Made by a program: the position numbers and the translations under genes. DNA of 46,326 nucleotides from Candidatus Eisenbacteria bacterium. GTDB taxonomy: Bacteria > Orphanbacterota > Orphanbacteria > Orphanbacterales > Orphanbacteraceae. The stretch is taken from the NCBI GenBank assembly GCA_016930695.1, contig JAFGGD010000004.1:1-46326 (forward strand), read 5' to 3'. The notes below the pieces were generated by a model. The model was not told the origin of the DNA. It searched no databases and was given only the letters and a program-made list of their open reading frames with translations. Positions 91 to 11,647 of the stretch are shown one piece after another (position 1 is the first letter of the stretch; each line of letters opens with the position of its first letter).

Positions 91-1788
91 ATGGATACCG
101 TTGTCAGTACATTTAGCGTGGTCGACAGGAAGGTCTATGCCGTACAAACCGCGTCACGAGTAATCGAACGCTGCCTACTCATGACCACCGATCCCGGCGA
201 CCTCGTCCTCGACCCTACATGCGGCGGGGGCACCACCGCCTATGTCGCCGAGCAGTGGGGGCGCCGCTGGATCACCATCGACACGAGCCGTGTCGCCGTC
301 GCGATCGCCCGCCAGCGCATCCTGACCGCCAAGTACGATCAATACCGTTTGCGGGACGAATCGCGTGGCCCGTCGAGCGGCTTCTTCTACAAGACCGTCC
401 CCCACATCACACTGAAGAGCATCGCCCAGAACCAGAACCTCGATCCCATCTTCGAAAAGCACGAGCCGATCCTGAAAGCCGCCCTCGACAAGTGCAACAA
501 AGCGCTCGCCGGCGTCTCGGACGAAATCCGCGAGAAGTGCCGGGCCAAGCTCCTCCAGAAAGAGAAAAAAGAGAAGAAGCGCTCCATCACCGACGCCGAC
601 CGGCGGCGCTGGCTCCTCCCGCCGGAGAACCGCGATATCAAGGCGAAGATGACCGTCCCCGTCGATTTCCCCGGCTGGTACGACTGGGAGGTCCCCTTCG
701 ACGTCGATCCGGATTGGCCGAAGGATCTACAAGACGCGGTGACCGATTACCGGAAGGCGTGGCGCGAGAAGATGGACGAGGTGAACGCGTGCATCGCCGC
801 GAACGCCGACCAGGAGGAACTGGTCGACAAGCCGGAGGTCGAGAAGGGGGTGGTCCGCGTCTCCGGTCCCTTCACCGTCGAAGGGGTCCGCCCCGGGGAA
901 CTCTCCCTCGGCGAAAGCGGCCTCTTCGGCGGCGCGCCGGAATCGTACGGTGACGACGGAGAGGGGGAGGACGTGCGGGACGACGCGCGGAATCTCCACG
1001 CCTACCTCACGCGGATGACCGCCCTTCTCCGGAAGGACGGCGTCACCTTCCCCGGCAACCGCTTCTCCCGCTTCGCGCGCCTCGACGCGCTCTACGAGGA
1101 GAAGAGCGGGACGACGGTCCACGCCGAGGGGATCTGGGAGGGGACGGACGAGGAGCGCCCCAACAACGTGGCGGTCGGATTCGGTCCTCCGCACGGGCCG
1201 GTGACCGCCGAGCAGGTGGAGGATCTGATCCGCGCGAGCCGGCGCTACGACGAGCTGGTGGTCGCCGGGTTCAGCTTCGACTCCGAAGCGTCGGCGGTGA
1301 TCCAGGAGTCGGCCAATCCCCGGCTCAAGATCCACATGGCCCACATCCGGCCGGACGTCGGCCCCGGCATGGAAGGGCTCCTCAAGGAGACGCCGGACAG
1401 CCAGCTCTTCACCGTCTTCGGACGGCCGGAGATCCGCGTGAAGAAGAAGAAAGAGGAGCATGTGGTCGAGCTGGTCGGCGTGGACATCTACGATCCCCTT
1501 AAGGGGGAGATCCGCTCCTCCAAGGCGGAGAAGGTGGCCGCCTGGTTCCTGGACGCCGACTACGACGGGCGCTGCTTCTGCGTCACCCAGGCCTTCTTCC
1601 CGGACAGGGACGCCTGGGGGAAGATCGCCAAGGCGCTCGGCTCCCAGGCCGATCCGGAGGCGTTCGAGGCGTTTCAGGGGACCGTCTCCCTCCCCTTCAA
1701 ACCGGGAAAACACAAGAGGATTGCCGTCAAGGTGATCGATCCCCGGGGGAACGAGGTGATGACCTTCGCCCATTTGGACGGGGAATGA
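91..1788 (+). CDS. Truncated type III-like (beta-class) DNA methyltransferase, C-terminal part
   Basis: This is the C-terminal part of an adenine-specific methyltransferase of the type III Mod kind. The S-adenosylmethionine pocket (motif I) is visible as DPTCGGGTTAYVAEQWGRRW near residues 50-68, after the family's usual VYAVQT and RCLLMTTDPGDLVL stretches. In this class the catalytic DPPY motif lies N-terminal to motif I, and it is absent here. The frame could open at position 46, where a W-x-D-T stretch around 82-93 still looks homologous, but in-frame stops at 19-21 and 43-45 block any longer protein. No other frame in the first 90 bases resembles the missing part. The gene is therefore truncated or rearranged at its 5' end and is probably inactive, unless the window edge coincides with a frameshift. 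The following ~500 residues are a long C-terminal extension typical of the partner methylases of large restriction helicases. It precedes the MNT-HEPN pair and the Res-like gene on the same strand. Confidence 0.75.
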   Translation: MDTVVSTFSVVDRKVYAVQTASRVIERCLLMTTDPGDLVLDPTCGGGTTAYVAEQWGRRWITIDTSRVAVAIARQRILTAKYDQYRLRDESRGPSSGFFYKTVPHITLKSIAQNQNLDPIFEKHEPILKAALDKCNKALAGVSDEIREKCRAKLLQKEKKEKKRSITDADRRRWLLPPENRDIKAKMTVPVDFPGWYDWEVPFDVDPDWPKDLQDAVTDYRKAWREKMDEVNACIAANADQEELVDKPEVEKGVVRVSGPFTVEGVRPGELSLGESGLFGGAPESYGDDGEGEDVRDDARNLHAYLTRMTALLRKDGVTFPGNRFSRFARLDALYEEKSGTTVHAEGIWEGTDEERPNNVAVGFGPPHGPVTAEQVEDLIRASRRYDELVVAGFSFDSEASAVIQESANPRLKIHMAHIRPDVGPGMEGLLKETPDSQLFTVFGRPEIRVKKKKEEHVVELVGVDIYDPLKGEIRSSKAEKVAAWFLDADYDGRCFCVTQAFFPDRDAWGKIAKALGSQADPEAFEAFQGTVSLPFKPGKHKRIAVKVIDPRGNEVMTFAHLDGE

Positions 1789-1834: not shown

Positions 1835-2422
1835 ATGAGTCTACTCGGCGAACTGGTGGGGTCGAAGATACGGGCGGAGGTGTTCCGGCTCCTCTTCGCG
1901 GGGCCGGAGACGGAGATCCACGTCCGCGAGATCGAGAGAAGGACCGGCTTCAACGACCGGGCGATCCGGGAGGAACTCCGGAAGCTGGCGCGCCTGGACC
2001 TTCTGATCGCGAGGCGGGACGGAAACCGCCTCTATTACTCCGCCAACCGGAGCCACCCGCTCTTCCCGGAGATCCGGAGCCTGGCGCTGAAGACGGCGGG
2101 GCTCGCGGACCATCTCCGGGAGGCGCTTTCGGGGGAGGAGATCCGCGTCGCCTTCGTGTTCGGGTCGGTGGCGAAGGGAGAGGAGAAGGGCGGGAGCGAC
2201 GTGGACCTTCTCGTCGTCGGAAAGGCGGGGCTTCGGAAGATCGCGGGGGCGCTCCGGGGTGCGACCGAGGCGATTGGGCGGGAGGTGAATCCGGTGGTGA
2301 TGACGCCGGAGGAGTTCCGGCGGCGGCGGAAGGAAAAGGACCACTTCCTCGCCGGCGTTCTTCGGGGACCGAAGGTCTTCGTCCTGGGGAACGAGGATGA
2401 CCTTAGAGGATTGGCGCCGTAA
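1835..2422 (+). CDS. Winged-helix / MNT-type nucleotidyltransferase fusion protein
   Basis: A 195-aa protein with an N-terminal winged helix (about residues 1-75, MSLLGELVGSKIRAEVFRLL onward, with the helix-turn-helix near VREIERRTGFNDRAIREELR) followed by a minimal nucleotidyltransferase fold. The nucleotidyltransferase signature is FGS at 109-111 and D122-V-D124, matching the G-S-x10-D-x-D pattern. MNT proteins paired with HEPN proteins act as antitoxins, in known cases by AMPylating the HEPN partner; the winged helix suggests it also represses its own operon. A GTG at 1796 would extend the frame, but that start lies upstream of the palindrome and would put it inside the coding region, so ATG 1835 is preferred. 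It overlaps the next gene by 26 bases. MNT-HEPN modules are common beside restriction genes. Confidence 0.85.
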   Translation: MSLLGELVGSKIRAEVFRLLFAGPETEIHVREIERRTGFNDRAIREELRKLARLDLLIARRDGNRLYYSANRSHPLFPEIRSLALKTAGLADHLREALSGEEIRVAFVFGSVAKGEEKGGSDVDLLVVGKAGLRKIAGALRGATEAIGREVNPVVMTPEEFRRRRKEKDHFLAGVLRGPKVFVLGNEDDLRGLAP

Positions 2423-2840
2423 CGGGTGGCTGCAAACGCATCGGACGAGCCGTGAGGAGGTCCGCGGTCTCCTCGGCATCGTGCGGCGCGATTTGGAAGA
2501 CGCCGGAGGGGCGATCTCGCCGGACTGGCGTTTCGGGATCGCCTACAACGCCGCCCTCAAGCTGTGCACGCTCCTCCTCGCCGCGTCGGGTTACCGCCCG
2601 GCTCACACGGCTCATCATTATCGCGCCCTCGCCTCGCTCCCTCTCATTCTTGGGCCGGAACGGCGGGAGGACGCGGACTACCTGGAGACGTGCCGGCGCA
2701 AGCGGAACGAGGCAGATTACATCGTAGCCGGCGGGGTGACCGAGGTGGACGCGGAGGAACTCCGGGATTTCGCGCGGGGGCTGATGAAGGACGCGCGGGC
2801 GTGGCTCACGGAGAACCATCCGGAGCTTCTCGGGGAATAG
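2397..2840 (+). CDS. HEPN-domain protein (SAV_6107-like), partner of the MNT protein
   Basis: A 147-aa all-helical protein with the layout of small HEPN proteins: a central helix pair with YNAALKLCTLLL and H-T-A-H-H-Y, then a late R-rich signature (CRRKRNEADY, about residues 99-108). HEPN toxins cut RNA with an R-x4-6-H motif. Here the histidine place is taken by tyrosine, as in the SAV_6107-like branch, so RNase activity cannot be assumed. Its ATG lies inside the upstream MNT gene (26-base overlap), so the two are translationally coupled and probably form one complex. Only 19 bases separate it from the restriction gene, so all three are probably one transcription unit. Confidence 0.75.
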   Translation: MTLEDWRRNGWLQTHRTSREEVRGLLGIVRRDLEDAGGAISPDWRFGIAYNAALKLCTLLLAASGYRPAHTAHHYRALASLPLILGPERREDADYLETCRRKRNEADYIVAGGVTEVDAEELRDFARGLMKDARAWLTENHPELLGE

Positions 2841-2859
2841 GAGCGCGGGGAGAGCGTCG

Positions 2860-5800
2860 ATGAGCAAGGGGAGAGCGAGCCGCCGCGAGGAGACGCCGCC
2901 GCCCGATTGGAAGCCGACGCAGGCGGTGGACAATCCGGTCATCAACGATCCCTACGGCGAACCGACCAAGCACTGGCTCTATAAGGAGGGCGTCCCGAGC
3001 CTGATGGACGGGCGGCGGGAGGCGAGCTACTGGTTCAAGACGAAGAGGACCGGCGCGAAGGAGCAGGATCTCTTCGCCGAGGAGGAGAGGGACAGCCTCC
3101 CGTTGGTGAACGCGCTCCGCGGGGACGTGAAGCGGTGGCGTGAATCGGGTTACCGCGGCGCCTCGCGGGTGACCAAGGAACTCCTCGAATGGTGGATGGG
3201 GGAGGATCGCCCGAGGCGCCTCTTCTTCTGCCAGAGAGAGTCGGCGGAGACACTCATCTACCTGCTCGAGCTGGCTCTTCCCGGGCGGCTGCACGCCACC
3301 GGTTTCAAGAACTTCGAGGTGGGCGCCGGGGTCGTGGATCAGCTCCGTCGCGGCGAACCACCGGATCTCCCCTCGCTGGTCGGCGATCACCCGCCGCGTC
3401 TCATCGATCCCCCCTCCGACGCGGATCTGCTCCCGCTCCTGCGGCTCGGCTGCAAGATGGCGACCGGGAGCGGCAAGACGATCATCATGGGGATGCTGAT
3501 CGCCTGGGCGTTCTGCAACCGGGGGAGGAATCCGGCGTCGGCGCACTACCCGAGCGGGGTGCTGGTCTGCGCGCCGAACCTCACGGTGAGGAAGAGGCTG
3601 CAGGTACTCCGCCCGGAGGATCCGGACAACTACTACGACGCCTTCGATCTGGTGCCGCCCAAGTACCGCGAATACCTGAACGCGGGGAAGGTGCTCATCA
3701 CCAACTGGCACGTCTTCGCGCCGAAGAGCGAGCACGTGGAAGGGGGGAAGAGCTACGCGGTGGTGAACAAGGGGGAGGAGACCCCCGAGGCGTTCACCAA
3801 GGACCGGCTCGGCGATCTCGTGAGCCGTCTGCCGATCCTGGTGCTGAACGATGAAGGGCACCACTGCTGGCGGGGGCGGCCGCTCAGCAAGAAGGAGGAG
3901 AAGGAGGCGGTCGAGGGGCTGGACCGGGAGAAGAAGAAGGAGTTGTCGGAGGAGGCGGACACGGCGCGCGTCTGGCTCGCCGGACTCGACCGGATCAACA
4001 ACAGCGGGCTGGCCGGCCGGAACGGCGGAGGCCCGGCCCCGGCGATTCTGGGGTGCGTCGATCTCTCGGCGACCCCATTTTACCTCTCCACGAGCGGCTA
4101 TCCGGAGGGGAGCCCCTTCCCGTGGCTGGTGAGCGATTTCGGCTTGGTGGACGCGATCGAGTGCGGCATCGTCAAGGTGCCGAGGCTGCCGGTCCGTGAC
4201 GACGCGGGGACGAAGGACGACGCGGGGCGGCCCGACCCCAGGTACTTCCGCCTCTGGCATAACATCACCCAAAAGGATCTGAAGGCGGGAGACTACATCC
4301 GGCGGGGACAGCCCAAGCCGGAGGCGATCTACAAGTACGCCGAGGGGGCGCTGGCGACGCTCGCCGCGCAGTGGAAGAAACACTTCGAAAAGGCCCGGGA
4401 GGACGCGGACGGGCAACCCTTCGTTCCCCCCGCGATGATCGTGGTCTGCGACAACACCGATCTGGCGGAGGTTTTCTTCCGGAAGATCAGCGGGGAGCAG
4501 GAGGAGGAAACGGCGAACGAGCAGGGGAAGACGATCCAGGTCAAGAAATACCAGGCGAGCGCCATCCTGCCCGAGCTGGGGAACACCGAAAAGGAACAGC
4601 ACACCATACGGATCGACTCGGATCTGCTCAAGAAGATCGAGACGGAGGAGGGGGAGAGCAAGGACGAGGCAGCCCTCCGTCTCAGGGAGATCATCGACAC
4701 GGTCGGGAAGCGAGGGGGGGCAGGGGAGCAGGTACGGTGCATCGTGTCGGTTTCGATGCTCACCGAGGGGTGGGACGCAAACAACGTGACCCACGTGCTC
4801 GGCGTGCGGGCCTTCGGGAGCCAGCTCCTCTGCGAACAGGTCGTCGGGCGCGGGCTCCGGAGGATGAGTTATACGCCCGACCCGGAGACCGGGCTGCTGC
4901 CGCCGGAGTATGTCGACGTCTACGGCATTCCCTTCTCGCTGATTCCGTTCAAGTCGGTGACGCCGAGCAATCCACCCGTCCCGAGGACCTATCACGACAT
5001 CTACGCGCTGCCCGATCGGGCGGCGTTCGAGATCCGTATGCCGAACGTGGAGAGCTACGTGTACGCCCTGCGGGACTCGGGGATCCGGTGCGACGTGGAC
5101 GCGATGGAGCCCTTGATCGTGGATCAGGAGCCGGGCGAGGTGTGGCTCGCGCCGACGCGGGGGATCCGGGACGACGAAGGTGAGAGGGCGGACGCGGGGG
5201 ATTTCGTCCGGCAGACGAGGGACGAGTACTACGATTCCGTGCGTCCCCAGCAGCTGATCTTCCGTCTCGCCCAACTCATCCTGGACGATCTCCTCAGGGG
5301 CGCCGAGGCGGACGAGTCGGAGCGGGGAAAGATCAAGCTGCTCGCGCGGCACCAGCTCTTCCCGGAAATCGTCGCGATCGTGGAGGAGTACATCCGCAAG
5401 AAGGTGACCTTCCGCCCCGGCACGGACGAGAGGGAACTGGGCCTCGAACGGTACAGCCGGATGCTACGAGAGAGAGTGCGGGACAACATCCTGCCGGCCG
5501 TCGCGAGCGAGGACCGGAAGCTCCTCCCGGTGTTGAACTCCTTCGAGCAGTACACGACGACGGCGAATGTCAACTCGAAGACGACGCGGCCGGTCCGGCG
5601 GCTCGTGAAAAGCCACCTGAACGCGGCGGTGATCTTCAGCGATTTAGAGCGCCGGGCGATCGAGGTCATGGAGGAACTCGACTGCGTCGAGTGTTTCACT
5701 CCCAACGACCGACAGATCGGATTGATCGTTCCGTACGAGTACGGCGAAAACGCGCACAACTACGAGCCGGACTTCCTCGTGCGATTGAAGAACGGCGTGA

Positions 5801-6504
5801 TGGTGATGCTGGAGATCAAGGGGGGAGGAGGGCTCATCCACGCGGAAGACCAAGTCAAGGCGAAGAACGCCGCCGCGCGGAAATGGACCGCCGCGGTTAA
5901 TAACCTGGGGAAATACGGGCAATGGGATTTCGAGGTCTGCGAGGATCCGAACAAACTGTGGGCTATCCTGCGGAAGCATTGTCCGGAGGCGGGGGAGAAC
6001 CGGCCCTTCCGATTCGTCGAGCCGAATCGCGAAACCGCTTGGAGGGATTGCGTTCCGCTCACGACCTTGCAGGCGGCGGCCGGCCGTTTCGGGGAGGAGC
6101 AGCTTTCCTTCGATCGCTTCGACGAGTGGGCGGGAGAGTGGATTGTCTGGGACGGGGCGCCCAGATTCTCGGAGGGCATGTTCGTTGCGCGGGTGTACGG
6201 GAAGTCGATGGAACCGATGATCCCGGACGGCGCGTATTGTCTATTCAAGTCGCCGTCCGCCGGGACGAGGGTGGGGAAGGTCGTTCTCGTCTGGCATTCC
6301 GGCGTGTCCGATCCCCATACCGGCGGCCAGTACACCGTGAAGATCTATGAAAGCGAAAAGCGGGGCGCCGAAGAGGGGGAATGGGAGCACACACGGGTGA
6401 TTCTGAGGCCGAAGAACCCGGACTTCGAGCCGATCATCCTCGAGCCGGAGGAAGAGAACGAGGTGCGGGTCGTGGCCGAGTTCGTGACCGTTGTGGGGAG
6501 TTAG
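2860..6504 (+). CDS. Type III Res-like helicase-nuclease fused to a LexA/UmuD-like S24 module
   Basis: A 1214-aa protein. The superfamily 2 helicase core shows Walker A MATGSGKT (200-207), DEGH box (331-334), SATPF (403-407), TEGWD (635-639) and QVVGRGLRR (660-668). A PD-(D/E)xK nuclease follows: P970-D971 and E985-x-K987 in YEPDFLV...MLEIKG. These fit an ATP-dependent restriction subunit working with the upstream methylase. The last ~150 residues are an S24 peptidase-like domain: A1074-G1075 in LQAAAGRFGEEQ resembles the LexA/UmuD cleavage site, S1116 lies in GKSMEPMIPDG, and K1161 in YTVKIY fits the general-base lysine. Spacing from scissile bond to serine (41) is close to LexA and UmuD (35-36); serine to lysine (45) is longer than their 37. 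Standard Res subunits end with the nuclease domain, so this is a fusion. Its stop is 27 bases from the end of the convergent glycosylase gene. Confidence 0.88.
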   Translation: MSKGRASRREETPPPDWKPTQAVDNPVINDPYGEPTKHWLYKEGVPSLMDGRREASYWFKTKRTGAKEQDLFAEEERDSLPLVNALRGDVKRWRESGYRGASRVTKELLEWWMGEDRPRRLFFCQRESAETLIYLLELALPGRLHATGFKNFEVGAGVVDQLRRGEPPDLPSLVGDHPPRLIDPPSDADLLPLLRLGCKMATGSGKTIIMGMLIAWAFCNRGRNPASAHYPSGVLVCAPNLTVRKRLQVLRPEDPDNYYDAFDLVPPKYREYLNAGKVLITNWHVFAPKSEHVEGGKSYAVVNKGEETPEAFTKDRLGDLVSRLPILVLNDEGHHCWRGRPLSKKEEKEAVEGLDREKKKELSEEADTARVWLAGLDRINNSGLAGRNGGGPAPAILGCVDLSATPFYLSTSGYPEGSPFPWLVSDFGLVDAIECGIVKVPRLPVRDDAGTKDDAGRPDPRYFRLWHNITQKDLKAGDYIRRGQPKPEAIYKYAEGALATLAAQWKKHFEKAREDADGQPFVPPAMIVVCDNTDLAEVFFRKISGEQEEETANEQGKTIQVKKYQASAILPELGNTEKEQHTIRIDSDLLKKIETEEGESKDEAALRLREIIDTVGKRGGAGEQVRCIVSVSMLTEGWDANNVTHVLGVRAFGSQLLCEQVVGRGLRRMSYTPDPETGLLPPEYVDVYGIPFSLIPFKSVTPSNPPVPRTYHDIYALPDRAAFEIRMPNVESYVYALRDSGIRCDVDAMEPLIVDQEPGEVWLAPTRGIRDDEGERADAGDFVRQTRDEYYDSVRPQQLIFRLAQLILDDLLRGAEADESERGKIKLLARHQLFPEIVAIVEEYIRKKVTFRPGTDERELGLERYSRMLRERVRDNILPAVASEDRKLLPVLNSFEQYTTTANVNSKTTRPVRRLVKSHLNAAVIFSDLERRAIEVMEELDCVECFTPNDRQIGLIVPYEYGENAHNYEPDFLVRLKNGVMVMLEIKGGGGLIHAEDQVKAKNAAARKWTAAVNNLGKYGQWDFEVCEDPNKLWAILRKHCPEAGENRPFRFVEPNRETAWRDCVPLTTLQAAAGRFGEEQLSFDRFDEWAGEWIVWDGAPRFSEGMFVARVYGKSMEPMIPDGAYCLFKSPSAGTRVGKVVLVWHSGVSDPHTGGQYTVKIYESEKRGAEEGEWEHTRVILRPKNPDFEPIILEPEEENEVRVVAEFVTVVGS

Positions 6505-6531: not shown

Positions 6532-7209
6532 TCAGAGCTTGTCGATGATCTCCTTGTAATTCTCGTAGATCGAGTAATCGAGCATCGATCCCAGGACCCC
6601 CAACTCATCCGCCACGTCGAGATAGAACCGTTCCTCTTCTTCATAGGTCGAGAAGGACAATCCCAGGGTGCGGGTGACGTTCTTGAATCGCGAGTCGAGC
6701 GCGATCGAGTGGGTTGCATCGGGATCGTTGATGTCGCGGAGGATGTTCCTTGAGTACTTCTGGCCGATTCCGGAGAGTTGTTCGAGGTATCTTGTTTTCG
6801 GTTTCAGCCCCTCCATTCCAAGGATCTCTTCACCTATCCGGGCGGGGCCTCCTCTCTCGGCGATCCAATCCACGTTGCGAGCAAGATAGAGCGCCTTCTT
6901 TTCCGGATAACGCACCTTCGCCCGGCGGAGAACCGGTTCGATATGATTGCGGCGTTTCTCGAAAGGCATTGCCAGTAGTTTCTCGTATTCCACCTGCGAA
7001 CGGTTCTCGGCATTGTTGATCAGGCCTTCCGCCCCGTATGAGGAGCCCCAGGTGGCGAAACTGAGCAGGAGATGGTCCCAGAGCCAGTCCGGGGACAGTT
7101 TCTCCTTCCAGTCCTTCTCCGGGCCTCCGGGGGAGGGTTGCCGGTCCCGGGGAAGGGCACGAACGGCTCGGACGAGCCTCCTTTTCGCTTCATCGATTCG
7201 TGGATCCAT
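6532..7209 (-). CDS. HhH-type DNA glycosylase / AP lyase-like protein
   Basis: A 225-aa protein with a helix-hairpin-helix at LSGIGQKYSRN (residues 145-155) followed by IALDSRFKNVTRTLGL. This matches the HhH-GPD order in endonuclease III, where the hairpin lysine (here K151) and a downstream aspartate (here D172, compare V-D-T-H) are the catalytic pair. Both are kept, so base excision with AP-lyase activity is plausible. There is no iron-sulfur cluster motif, and outside the core the sequence is not that of ordinary Nth, MutY or Ogg. A good Shine-Dalgarno (GAGGAG) sits before ATG 7209. It is the last gene of a three-gene minus-strand operon, 18 bases behind the second glycosylase-like gene. 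Inference: a damage- or modified-base-specific enzyme linked to defence rather than housekeeping repair. Confidence 0.7.
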   Translation of the reverse strand: MDPRIDEAKRRLVRAVRALPRDRQPSPGGPEKDWKEKLSPDWLWDHLLLSFATWGSSYGAEGLINNAENRSQVEYEKLLAMPFEKRRNHIEPVLRRAKVRYPEKKALYLARNVDWIAERGGPARIGEEILGMEGLKPKTRYLEQLSGIGQKYSRNILRDINDPDATHSIALDSRFKNVTRTLGLSFSTYEEEERFYLDVADELGVLGSMLDYSIYENYKEIIDKL

Positions 7210-7227
7210 GGTTTCTCCTCGAGGCGG

Positions 7228-8031
7228 CTACTCGCGTCTCGTCGAAAGACCGGTTCCCGGGCAAACCGCTGTCAGCGGGCATTCCGCGCAGTCCGGCCGG
7301 CGCGGCCGGCAGTATTTCCGTCCGATGTCCCAACAGGGAGCGTCGAGGGATCCGGGAAAATCGGGGGCGAGTTCACGGGCGGTGTCCATGACCTCCCGGT
7401 CGGATGCTCCTCTTTTCACGAGACCGGAGCGGATGAAAACGCGGCGAACGTGGACGTCCGGTTTGACGTTGATATGGGGTTTCGCCTTTCTGCCGCCGAG
7501 AAGTCCTTTATTGCGGGCGAGAATCAGTAGGGTCATTTCCGCGATTCCGGTGCCGATACCCGGGATTTCGAGAAGGCGCTCACGGACGACATTCACGTCT
7601 CTCTGAGCGTTCCAGATCTTGCGGGGATCGCCGTTATATTCATCGATCATCACTTCAGCGGTTTCCTTGAGCCACCTCGAAAAACCCTTGTAATAACGGT
7701 GAACGGCCCGGCCCCCACGGCCATACCGAAGGAAGTTCCTGAGACGAACGGCCGGCATCGACCGCAGGTTGGTCCAAAGCGACTTCGGGTCGTTCGGATC
7801 CCTCGTCAGCACCTCCGCCACCCATTCGCCGTTATCCCAGGCTCGATCCGCGTTTACGGCTCTATCTAGTATTGCTCCAAGCAAGAAACCGTTCGCTTTT
7901 TCATGGGTCATTCTTGTCGGTTTGCGAGCCCATCGAGTCCATTCAGAATCCACTCTTCTTCTGAGCTTCTTTTCATGCTCTCTCAAAGAGACGACTACTT
8001 TTTGCTTGGTTCGGGGGCCGGCTGTCGTCAT
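7228..8031 (-). CDS. Endonuclease III-like iron-sulfur DNA glycosylase
   Basis: A 267-aa member of the HhH-GPD superfamily. The hairpin is IPGIGTGIAEM (IPGIG at 156-160), the catalytic aspartate is D192 in VKPDVHVRR, and the C-terminus carries the endonuclease III-type 4Fe-4S spacing C241-x6-C248-x2-C251-x5-C257. The lysine that makes endonuclease III a lyase is replaced by glycine in the hairpin (GIGTG against GVGRK), so it should be a monofunctional glycosylase, as in MutY-type enzymes. The ~130-residue N-terminal part is not a typical Nth sequence. The start is ATG 8031, preceded by GGAGAGG; a longer open frame upstream is only the antisense of the neighbouring gene. Gaps of 11 and 18 bases to its neighbours show a tight operon. 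Confidence 0.82.
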   Translation of the reverse strand: MTTAGPRTKQKVVVSLREHEKKLRRRVDSEWTRWARKPTRMTHEKANGFLLGAILDRAVNADRAWDNGEWVAEVLTRDPNDPKSLWTNLRSMPAVRLRNFLRYGRGGRAVHRYYKGFSRWLKETAEVMIDEYNGDPRKIWNAQRDVNVVRERLLEIPGIGTGIAEMTLLILARNKGLLGGRKAKPHINVKPDVHVRRVFIRSGLVKRGASDREVMDTARELAPDFPGSLDAPCWDIGRKYCRPRRPDCAECPLTAVCPGTGLSTRRE

Positions 8032-8042
8032 ATTTTCCTCTC

Positions 8043-9215
8043 CTACCCAACTCCCTTCGCCTTCACGATCCGTACGATCAACCCCTCGCAGCCGATGCCG
8101 AGGACGTCGGCGCGGATGGGATCGACGTCGGCGCGGGCGAGCATTTGGTCGTGGGCGGCGGGATTGCGATAACGGCGGAGGTCGTTCACCTCGCTCGGGA
8201 GGCGTTCGAGGAGCCAGACGGCGTGGCGGGGGAGGGCCGCGCGGACCGCGTCCTTGAAGATCGTGCTGTTCTTCAGAAGATGCTGGATCGATCCGATCGT
8301 TTCGTGACGGTCGTGGGCGGCGAGGTCGATCTCGGGGCGCTTGTCCGACGTGATGATCCTCTTCGCCGCCGGCGCGTCCGCCAGTTTCCGCGCGATCGGC
8401 GGGAACAGAAGGGCGTGGAGTTCCGTTTCCACCGCCTTGGCGTATTCCACCACCACCGGCGAGAAATCGAAGCGCGGATCCTCCCGGCGGGCGCGGTAGA
8501 CCGCCTCGCCCGCCGACAGGAAGCGGCGCGTCTCCGGCTCCATCCCGTGCCAGATTTCCTTCCCGAAGAGGTTTTCCCGCAATTCCTTGGCGAGCCGGCT
8601 CGACTCGCCCCGGTGTTCGGCGTCCGCTCTCGCCCAGATGCGCCCGCCCGTTACTTCCTCCCTCCCGGCGAACCAGGTGCGCGGACGCTTTTGCCGGACG
8701 ATGAGCGGCACGTCCACCATACCGCCGTAGATGGAGACCGGCTTGTCGTCGTATCGGGTGTTGAGAAGCCCTCCCATCTCGCGGCACGCCTCGGTGGTGT
8801 CGTGCGCGACGATGCAGCGGATGTCGCGCAGCTTCATCCAGCAGTCGACCGGCCAGGAGGCTTCGCGATAATAGGACGGCAGATGGTCTTTCTCCGATTC
8901 CATCCCGCGCAAATTGTCGCAGACGATTCCGGCCAGCCATCCGACGTAGAGAGACTGATAATCGGTGACGTAGAGATGGGTCTCCACACCGGCGGCGATC
9001 TGCTCATTCAACGCGAGGATCTGTTCCATGTGATCGAGAGGGGAGGGGCGCCGGGGCGACCGTACTTTCGCCCACCAGACGTAGACGTCCTCTTCCTTCG
9101 CCCCGTTTTGCAGGGCGCGTTCCCCCCAGTCGAGGAGAATGGTGATGTGCTGGTCGAGCGCGTCCGCGCAGTAGTAGGGATTCCAGACGGTGAGTAGGTG
9201 GTTCGCTTCGGACAT
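8043..9215 (-). CDS. Uncharacterised defence-associated protein with C-terminal HEPN-like motif
   Basis: A 390-aa soluble protein with no signal peptide or membrane segment. Its first ~200 residues (MSEANHLLTVWNPYYCADAL..., with DVYVWWAKVRSP and VTDYQSLYVGWLAGI) belong to no family I can name with certainty. The C-terminal part is helical and ends with LRRYRNPAAHDQ. R350-N-P-A-A-H355 fits the HEPN R-x4-H ribonuclease motif, and VVEYAKAVETELHALLF (about 285-300) fits the preceding HEPN helix. The start was set at ATG 9215; 29 further upstream residues in frame look non-coding. It is the first gene of the minus-strand operon with the two glycosylase-like genes. An RNase effector or a sensor for the glycosylases is an inference. 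Confidence 0.7.
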   Translation of the reverse strand: MSEANHLLTVWNPYYCADALDQHITILLDWGERALQNGAKEEDVYVWWAKVRSPRRPSPLDHMEQILALNEQIAAGVETHLYVTDYQSLYVGWLAGIVCDNLRGMESEKDHLPSYYREASWPVDCWMKLRDIRCIVAHDTTEACREMGGLLNTRYDDKPVSIYGGMVDVPLIVRQKRPRTWFAGREEVTGGRIWARADAEHRGESSRLAKELRENLFGKEIWHGMEPETRRFLSAGEAVYRARREDPRFDFSPVVVEYAKAVETELHALLFPPIARKLADAPAAKRIITSDKRPEIDLAAHDRHETIGSIQHLLKNSTIFKDAVRAALPRHAVWLLERLPSEVNDLRRYRNPAAHDQMLARADVDPIRADVLGIGCEGLIVRIVKAKGVG

Positions 9216-9330
9216 GGCTCTTTCCGGTGTCGATGTTTCGCGGATTGTAGCAGGCGGAGAAGAAAAAAAGAAGAGTCTCGCGCGGGTTCGGGCATTAGGC
9301 AAACAGGGGCGCTCACCACTGCAATAACAG

Positions 9331-9350
9331 GTGACCGTCCCTATTTGATT
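9331..9350 (+). repeat. Short dispersed repeat, copy 1
   Basis: GTGACCGTCCCTATTTGATT. The core CCGTCCCTATTT recurs with two changes at 9635-9646 and exactly at 18826-18837. It resembles the GTCCCTATTT-type repetitive extragenic motifs seen in many bacterial genomes next to transposase-like RAYT genes. No such gene is present here. Confidence 0.5.
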
Positions 9351-9473
9351 TTATCGGACCGTCTGTTCCGTTCTCGAATCGTTTGCCTCGCGGTCCGGAC
9401 CGTCTCCGTAGAGGATGCAAACGGAGAGGAGGACCGCGAGCAGGACGAGACCGAGGATCTTCCGGGCGTTCAT
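9351..9473 (-). CDS. Possible 40-aa single-pass membrane peptide
   Basis: A short frame starting MNARKILGLVLLAVLLSVC, with one hydrophobic segment (about residues 5-20) and a polar acidic tail. ATG 9473 has a GAGG-type ribosome site upstream. It lies between two copies of a dispersed repeat, with no recognisable homology. It could equally be a chance frame in a spacer. Confidence 0.3.
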   Translation of the reverse strand: MNARKILGLVLLAVLLSVCILYGDGPDREANDSRTEQTVR

Positions 9474-9630
9474 CTCGCACCTCGCAGCGCATGGGAAACC
9501 GCAGGACGATTCCGATCCTGCGACCGCGCCGTGGAGGATGTCAACTATTAAGGAAATGCCGGAATGAGACGCCGGGTGCCGCGGAACCGTTGTCGGTATC
9601 CGGTGTCTTGTTTTCACTCGATCCGAATGG

Positions 9631-9650
9631 GTGACTATCCCTATTTATTC
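9631..9650 (+). repeat. Short dispersed repeat, copy 2
   Basis: GTGACTATCCCTATTTATTC, matching the copy at 9331 except for two substitutions and one missing base. The two copies are exactly 300 bases apart in the same orientation. Confidence 0.45.
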
Positions 9651-9730
9651 CGTCGTGGTATTGTTTTCATCCGGCGCAGGCGTGAATCTCTCGGACAAAC
9701 GAGAACTTCCCCGGATATAGAGGACCTGAA

Positions 9731-11647
9731 ATGCATGGAGCGACTTTGGCGCGCACGAGCCGCGCCCGGATTCCGTTCGTCGCGGCGCTTTGTCTCGCCG
9801 CGGCCGTGATCGTCCCGAACGCCGCCGCATCGGACGGAGGTGCGGGCGCGGCGCCGAACCCCGCCGAAGGGGCCGCCGAGTGGGACACCACCTTCGTCGC
9901 CGACCCGATCGTGGTGACCGCCACGCGCGTCGAGACGGCGAGGCGCAAGGTACCCGGCTCGGTGTCGGTGATCGAGGGGGAGGAACTCCGCGCCACCGGA
10001 GCGACGTCGGTTCTGGACGCGATCGCGTCCTCGTCTCCCGGGCTCTACGTCACGCAAAGGAACGTCGCCGGCTTCGGCCTCGGGCCGGGCGCGGCGGGGC
10101 AGATCGCCATGCGCGGGATCGGCGGCGAGGCCCCCAACAGCCAGGTGCTCGTCCTCGTCGACGGGCGGCCGGACTACGTCGGCCTCTTCGGGCACCCGGT
10201 GCCGGACGCCTACGCGCTCGGCGAGGTGGAGCGCGTAGAGGTGTTGCGCGGGCCGGCGTCGGCGGTGTACGGACAGAACGCGATGGGGGGGGTGATCCAC
10301 ATCCTCACGCGGCGGCAGGGCGCGCCCGGGCTTCGTTTCCCCTTCCGCGCCGAGTTCGGTCCCTGGGGGACTGTGGACGCCAGCGCCACCGCGGCCGGCA
10401 TGCTGCACAACGGCCTCGACTGGCGGATGACGATCGGCCGCACACAAACCGACGGCCACCGCTCCGACGCGCCGGACGACTACGAAAGGACGCAGGCGTC
10501 CGGGTCGATCGGCTGGCGGCGCGGGCCGTGGGATTTCCGCATGCAGGGGGCGATGGTCCCCATCGAAGGGAAGGATCCGGGGCCGGAGGGGGGCGCGCCC
10601 GGCCTCGAGATCGACATCACCCGCTACAACGGCTCCCTCTCGGCGACCTATCATGAAGGGGCGACGACGGCGCGGGTGCTCCCCTATGTGAACTGGGGGA
10701 GGCACGAGTTCAGCGACGGCTGGGATTCCTACGATCGCGTGATCGGCGTGACCGCCTTCGCGAGCCGCGCCCTCGGGCGTGGATACGTGGCGACCGCCGG
10801 GTTCGATTTCTCGCGCGCCGGCGGCGAGGCGGAGACGCGGACCGAGACGGGCGTCACCGACTGGGGCGCCTATCACATCGTCGAAACGGCGCCGTCGCTC
10901 ACGTTGCAGGCGCCGGTGACGAGCCGGATCACGCTGGCCGGCACGGCGCGGGCGCACCACCACACCACCTACGGCTGGATCTTCGTGCCCGAGGGGGGCG
11001 TGGCGGTGGAAGCGCTGCCGGTGCTGACGCTGCGCGCGTCCGCCTCGCGCGGCTTCCGCTCGCCGACGATCCGCGACCTCTATCTCCTCCCGCCGTCGGA
11101 CGAGGATCTGGAGCCGGAGCGCACGGTGAACGTCGAGTTCGGCGCGGCGTGGGAGATGACGCGCCGCGTCGCGACCGAGGTCTCTCTCTGGCGGATGACC
11201 GGCGACAACATGATCCTCTTCACCGCGCCGCCGCCCGCCTACGTGAACAGCGGAGAGTTCACCCATCAAGGGATCGAGTGGGAGTTGCGCTGGGCGCACC
11301 CGCTCTTTCGCGGCCGCCTCTTCGCCGCCTTCCAGGACCTGGAGGACGAGACGATCGGCAAGCCGGAGCAGATGCTCGGGCTCACCGTTTCGTCGCGCCG
11401 CCACGGTTTCCGGGTGAGCGGCGAGGCGAGGCGCGTCGACCGTCTCTACGGGGCGAACGGCCGGAAGGACGAACTCCCCGGCTACACCTTACTGAATCTC
11501 ACCCTCGCCCGTTCGATCGGCGCCGGCGTGGAGTTGCAGGTCGCCGGCCGGAACCTGCTGGACGAGGATTACGAGACGATCACCGGGTATCCGATGCCGG
11601 GCGCCCACGCCATCTTCGCGATCGCGGCGGAGCTCGGAGGGGAGTAG
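9731..11647 (+). CDS. TonB-dependent outer-membrane receptor
   Basis: A 638-aa receptor that would bring a scarce nutrient (siderophore, cobalamin or similar) across the outer membrane using TonB energy. A signal peptide covers about residues 1-33 (VAALCLAAAVIVPNAAA). A TonB-box-like segment, DPIVVTATR, is at 58-66. The plug runs to about 185 and has the usual signatures IAMRGIGG, VLVLVDGRP, VERVEVLRGPASAVYGQNAMGGVI. The rest is an aromatic-rich beta barrel ending with the GYPMPG-A-H-AIF motif common near the end of these receptors. The substrate cannot be told from sequence. No riboswitch or Fur-like box was recognised upstream, and it stands alone without transporter genes. A weak ribosome site, GAGGA, precedes ATG 9731. 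Confidence 0.93.
   Translation: MHGATLARTSRARIPFVAALCLAAAVIVPNAAASDGGAGAAPNPAEGAAEWDTTFVADPIVVTATRVETARRKVPGSVSVIEGEELRATGATSVLDAIASSSPGLYVTQRNVAGFGLGPGAAGQIAMRGIGGEAPNSQVLVLVDGRPDYVGLFGHPVPDAYALGEVERVEVLRGPASAVYGQNAMGGVIHILTRRQGAPGLRFPFRAEFGPWGTVDASATAAGMLHNGLDWRMTIGRTQTDGHRSDAPDDYERTQASGSIGWRRGPWDFRMQGAMVPIEGKDPGPEGGAPGLEIDITRYNGSLSATYHEGATTARVLPYVNWGRHEFSDGWDSYDRVIGVTAFASRALGRGYVATAGFDFSRAGGEAETRTETGVTDWGAYHIVETAPSLTLQAPVTSRITLAGTARAHHHTTYGWIFVPEGGVAVEALPVLTLRASASRGFRSPTIRDLYLLPPSDEDLEPERTVNVEFGAAWEMTRRVATEVSLWRMTGDNMILFTAPPPAYVNSGEFTHQGIEWELRWAHPLFRGRLFAAFQDLEDETIGKPEQMLGLTVSSRRHGFRVSGEARRVDRLYGANGRKDELPGYTLLNLTLARSIGAGVELQVAGRNLLDEDYETITGYPMPGAHAIFAIAAELGGE

Follow-up and report, generated by a model that had tools for sequence, protein, structure and literature searches.

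Why should a restriction enzyme end in a domain of the kind with which LexA and UmuD cut themselves, and would such a cut turn restriction on or off? The question is raised by a single large ORF of Candidatus Eisenbacteria bacterium (contig JAFGGD010000004.1, positions 1–46,326; this whole 46,326-nt stretch of analysed DNA is hereafter called the window), which lies at nt 2860–6504 of the forward strand and encodes a BPTD_3080-family restriction helicase-nuclease of 1214 aa with a C-terminal S24 module. The helicase-nuclease part (nt 3427–5979, + strand; residues 190–1040) matched the NCBIfam equivalog model NF046055 (BPTD_3080 restriction endonuclease) with 854.2 bits, above the curated cut-off of 800. 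The SF2 motifs MATGSGKT (Walker A, starting at residue 200), DEGH (in NDEGHHCW, from residue 330), SATP and QVVGRGLRR are all intact. The PD-(D/E)xK nuclease residues D971, E985 and K987 (nt 5770–5820, + strand) are invariant in an alignment of 40 homologues, in whose numbering they are 952, 966 and 968. Thus, the SF2 helicase and the following nuclease, which a first-pass annotation had read from the letters of the sequence, were both recovered, with the nuclease residues at the positions proposed there.

The tail of the window enzyme is a LexA/UmuD-type S24 module (residues ≈1050–1214; nt 6007–6501, + strand), as the same annotation had suggested. Peptidase_S24 (PF00717) matched residues 1071–1207 (E 6.8e-8; 32.7 bits, cut-off 23.3), and the best PDB folds retrieved by Foldseek with the tail as modelled by AlphaFold (pLDDT 80, pTM 0.77) were LexA, lambda CI and UmuD, all with probability 1.00 (top match 3k2z, E 1.7e-5), RecA-bound structures of LexA and UmuD being among the matches. 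A sequence search of the PDB with the tail profile gave no match, so that matches came from the fold search only. By alignment, the predicted self-cleavage site is A1074-G1075 in LQAAAGRF (nt 6079–6084), and the predicted catalytic serine and lysine are S1116 (nt 6205–6207) and K1161 (nt 6340–6342), all on the + strand and all as originally assigned. A chance resemblance of motifs was rejected on the Pfam score, the fold match and the conservation of site and dyad in nearly all relatives (see below). In the full-length model (pTM 0.52) the packing of the S24 domain against the nuclease is unreliable.

The module shares with LexA, UmuD and lambda CI (MEROPS S24) the fold, the Ser-Lys dyad and the Ala-Gly site in their usual order; it differs in being carried on, or in, a DNA-translocating nuclease, and not a repressor or a polymerase subunit. 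It also has extra segments and forms a subfamily of its own: 42 residues separate P1 from the serine and 45 the serine from the lysine, against 35 and 37 in the LexA of the same genome. This ordinary LexA and the window restriction enzyme are the only two S24 matches in the whole genome.

A partner DNA methyltransferase of Type III-like N6/N4 type is encoded upstream, its C-terminal part at nt 91–1788 (+ strand) and its N-terminal part at the end of another contig of the same genome (G000:C51:9808-10566). The gene is split by an assembly gap (window nt 1–90), with residues 1–253 ending contig C51, residues from ≈449 onward beginning the window and ≈195 residues missing; no sign of a genuinely broken gene was found. 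The cognate methyltransferase gene thus adjoins the restriction gene, and in the L010 locus a complete methyltransferase gene stands beside the restriction endonuclease. Between the two window genes (nt 1796–2840) lie an HTH-nucleotidyltransferase and a HEPN protein (PADLOC PDC-M05A/B, type VII toxin-antitoxin-like), a pair that is missing from the closely related L010 locus. Just downstream of the restriction gene (nt 6532–9302, − strand), two HhH-GPD glycosylase-like ORFs and an HP0729-family protein are possibly another defence or repair unit.

Within the BPTD_3080 family the module is a minority feature. About 80 relatives were retained after scanning genome contigs; 12 of them run on into it and nearly all the others stop near residue 1033. 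Likewise, NF046055 stops before the module. In a tree of the restriction part the fused proteins fall in two places, which implies at least two gains of the module, or else a gain followed by loss. A confinement of the module to this family was rejected by the genome surveys, which retrieved it from many other hosts.

In these surveys whole genomes, many of the loci being from metagenome assemblies, were searched with the tail profile (alignment A1), and the counts are lower bounds, only the best first-look candidates having been scored. The S24 subfamily occurred in at least 18 of 386 genomes sampled for their relatedness to the window genome, most of them from other phyla and only 7 from the window's own phylum. 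It also occurred in at least 13 of 345 and at least 10 of 395 genomes of two large phyla, and in at least 20 of 392 genomes of the phylum to which L006 belongs (Planctomycetota, as given in its record). Of these 20 positive Planctomycetota genomes, 6 had two or more module places against a rough Poisson expectation of less than one, a count that contig-split genes inflate.

The host proteins, which come from many phyla, were identified by Pfam and PADLOC, or else through the clusters they form with proteins so identified. Among them are Type I HsdR enzymes of several subtypes (L119, L121–L123, L125, L128, L150, L151, L205, L212, L216 and others), a Type ISP enzyme (L127), a Type III enzyme (L218), PLD-helicase "Type IV" proteins with DUF3427 or an N-terminal HIT domain (L157–L159, L219, L223), DrmMI/Type IIG methylases (L124, L211, L207), DruE-like DEAD-MZB helicases (L118, L217 and others) and 16 Schlafen-group-3 (SLFN-g3) helicases, some with GIY-YIG. 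The Type ISP, Type I, Type IV, DISARM DrmMI and Druantia DruE proteins thus carry in some genomes the same S24 subfamily as the window enzyme, whereas their enzyme cores are unrelated to it and the family models that they match are devoid of an S24 module. XRE-type regulators were represented by L130 and L136 only; a role of these two as regulators of nearby restriction genes was considered and dropped, since no such gene stood out when the retrieved neighbourhoods were inspected by eye.

In a tree of 70 modules the host labels switch many times. A well-supported pair joins the Type ISP enzyme L127 with the HsdR L128 (100/90), the Schlafen helicase L126 falls inside the BPTD_3080 group with L004 (98/90; both genomes of family f30), and the DruE-like L208 groups with the HsdR proteins L150 and L151 (99/94). 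Such switches and supported mixed pairs indicate that the module passes from one enzyme to another. Its origin from a phage or a plasmid was rejected, since tblastn with the tail retrieved nothing from phage records and a single record, from Halomonas, from the plasmid collection, and no relative of the tail was found in viral contigs.

Three further architectures were observed. In L203 (nt 2082–5243) the S24 module is a separate ORF right after a ResIII helicase ORF, fused in the sister locus L201, which would reflect either a split gene or a frameshift. L219 and L223 combine HIT, PLD, helicase and S24 in a multi-domain, defence-like arrangement. In L039 (Candidatus Viridilinea; nt 9016–10958), the C-terminus of a BPTD_3080 enzyme is extended by a different sequence, at least 647 residues long up to the end of the contig and weakly CHAT-protease-like with an E-value of 0.005, below the cut-off; it may be a protease of another kind, attached where other members bear S24.

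Is self-cleavage what the module is kept for? Both dyad positions were readable in 74 modules, or 73 after dropping L120, a duplicate of L004. The alignment retained Ser and Lys together in 71 of the 74 (70 of the 73 without the duplicate); the other three have Ala and Arg in their place, and no module has lost just one of the two residues, an all-or-none pattern that a working self-cleavage unit predicts. Over the 73 readable rows, P1-P1' is A-G in 63, A-S in six, A-T in one, C-G in one and V-R in two, both V-R rows being proteins with a replaced dyad, and P2-P1 is AA in 63. The first-pass annotation had asked for invariance of the Ala-Gly site, the serine and the lysine, and had counted homologues with either catalytic residue replaced against its reading: the site and dyad proved widely kept, and strict invariance failed in three proteins (L002, L003 and L008), in which both catalytic residues are replaced together. 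As site and dyad are kept on many different restriction enzymes, self-cleavage is very probably the selected function of the module in most relatives.

The three exceptions all belong to the fused BPTD_3080 proteins, in whose alignment L002, L003 and L008 have Ser replaced by Ala and Lys by Arg, the others preserving the dyad wherever it is readable; L002 and L003 are also without the Ala-Gly site. The window and L010 proteins, both intact, are sister to L002 and L003 in the host tree, with L008 outside, whereas in the module tree the three dead-dyad modules cluster together. These placements would be explained by one loss followed by module exchange or by two losses, and we do not choose between them. 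All tested helicase and nuclease motifs are intact in the three proteins, and the comparison of the dead modules of L002 and L003 gave a pN of 0.21 and a pS of 0.69. With pN well below pS, the dead-dyad domain appears to be under purifying selection and thus to have, at least in these proteins, some use that does not involve proteolysis.

This retention of dead-dyad modules is also what would be expected if the S24 fold acted mainly in dimerisation or in docking, for instance on RecA filaments or the methyltransferase, with self-cleavage secondary or vestigial. LexA, CI and UmuD do form dimers. As a general account of the module we nevertheless judge this unlikely, because both catalytic residues persist in 70 of the 73 modules on many unrelated hosts and are lost only together, so that catalysis would be selected almost everywhere.

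What a cut would do to the enzyme is best approached from the modules that are not at the C-terminus. The module is mostly C-terminal; in L214, L215 and L221, however, it lies inside the N-terminal nuclease domain (HSDR_N) of an EcoEI-type HsdR. Residues 7–46 of L214 align to residues 1–40 of L229, an uninserted HsdR relative on a cyanobacterial plasmid, and residues 217–550 to residues 41–372 (75% identity), which places the insertion exactly between residues 40 and 41 (L229 numbering), ahead of the GRADY...VIEAKK nuclease core. L215 and L221 have the same domain order, and L202 resembles a fourth HSDR_N insertion with a broken frame. In L222, an HsdR of another type, the module comes immediately before the Walker A motif GVIWHTQGSGKS; the contig ends upstream, leaving the nuclease outside it. 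Self-cleavage would split the nuclease in L214, L215 and L221 and would separate the motor from the part preceding it in L222. These modules within the HsdR nuclease domain or before the HsdR motor strengthen the idea, already put forward in the first-pass annotation, that restriction may be switched by the module.

We favour, at a probability of roughly one half, a transferable self-cleavage switch that most likely works as an off-switch, that is, a built-in restriction alleviation triggered by RecA filaments. The window enzyme, a helicase-nuclease, would serve a Type III-like restriction-modification locus as its restriction subunit, and its S24 module would cut its own chain at A1074-G1075 by means of S1116 and K1161. 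The cut would be stimulated by RecA-ssDNA filaments arising after damage to the host DNA or from the enzyme's own cutting, RecA filaments being assumed as the trigger by homology. Cleavage would part the module from the enzyme and leave on the latter an ...LQAAA-COOH end similar to the ClpXP tag of cut LexA, and restriction would go off, a restriction alleviation acting in cis. Three observations make us prefer an off-switch: the insertions in HSDR_N or before the motor, where cleavage would break the nuclease or detach the motor; the motors and nucleases kept by the dead-dyad enzymes, which would be useless if activity needed cleavage; and the ...AA terminus that the enzyme would bear once cut. 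LexA cut at a site of this kind ends in ...VAA and is reportedly a ClpXP substrate (Neher et al. 2003, among the references of PMC4231737), and the ...AA-COOH end is by analogy a possible ClpXP tag. This end may be inherited and not selected, since it is also present in LexA itself, and HsdR or SLFN proteins might well stay active after losing a C-terminal module, unless the newly exposed end is a real degradation tag.

The outcome proposed is that of the restriction alleviation of the Type I enzyme EcoKI, in which damage to the host DNA, or its lack of modification, leads to a shutdown of the restriction subunit: ClpXP degrades HsdR while on host DNA, through a mode of recognition described in that work as unidentified (PMC4231737). 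EcoKI relies on an outside protease, ClpXP, whereas the window enzyme has a built-in, predicted self-cleaving domain, which may itself create the tag.

The opposite effect, in which the S24 module would hold the nuclease inactive until phage infection or DNA damage sets off a self-cleavage, stimulated by RecA, that frees it, is in our opinion improbable. It would likewise account for the conserved site and dyad. In window-type proteins the module comes straight after the nuclease, which it could mask, and damage sensing would suit effector hosts such as the SLFN/Nhi-like and DruE-like proteins. Yet L002, L003 and L008, with no dyad, should not cleave and would therefore be permanently inactive despite their intact helicase and nuclease motifs, so that this branch argues against an obligatory on-switch, and cleavage of the modules inserted in HSDR_N would break the nuclease fold that it is supposed to release.

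A further possibility is that the module cuts itself constitutively, shortly after the protein is made and whether or not DNA is damaged, and so serves in processing or timing, for example to hold restriction back until methylation is in place. This is in keeping with the slow spontaneous self-cleavage of S24 proteins at high pH, established for LexA, and such a delay would be useful with a methyltransferase partner gene upstream. It nevertheless appears very doubtful, as a conditional switch accords better with the wide re-use of the module on differently organised enzymes and with its insertion within a nuclease fold.

Returning to the off-switch, its extension to all the hosts, namely that one mobile LexA-type module has repeatedly been grafted onto unrelated restriction and anti-phage enzymes, in some cases within the nuclease fold itself, giving a general class of defence enzymes that destroy themselves, are coupled to the SOS response and have restriction alleviation built in, is put forward tentatively, at slightly less than even odds. 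Both S24 self-cleavage and the restriction enzymes in question are already well known. In the open-licence literature searched, we found no description of S24/LexA-like fusions to restriction or Druantia proteins, the texts of a YprA-helicase preprint and of the RptR paper making no mention of S24 or LexA; the same open papers yielded no earlier description of such a combination re-used across many enzyme types, even within nuclease domains. The way in which a cell is protected from its own restriction enzymes once its DNA is damaged has been worked out in just a few Type I systems, which depend on an outside protease. If the proposed reading is true, a self-cleaving SOS module in most kinds of ATP-dependent restriction would provide a general and directly testable answer to this problem of self-protection, and would link defence directly to the SOS response.
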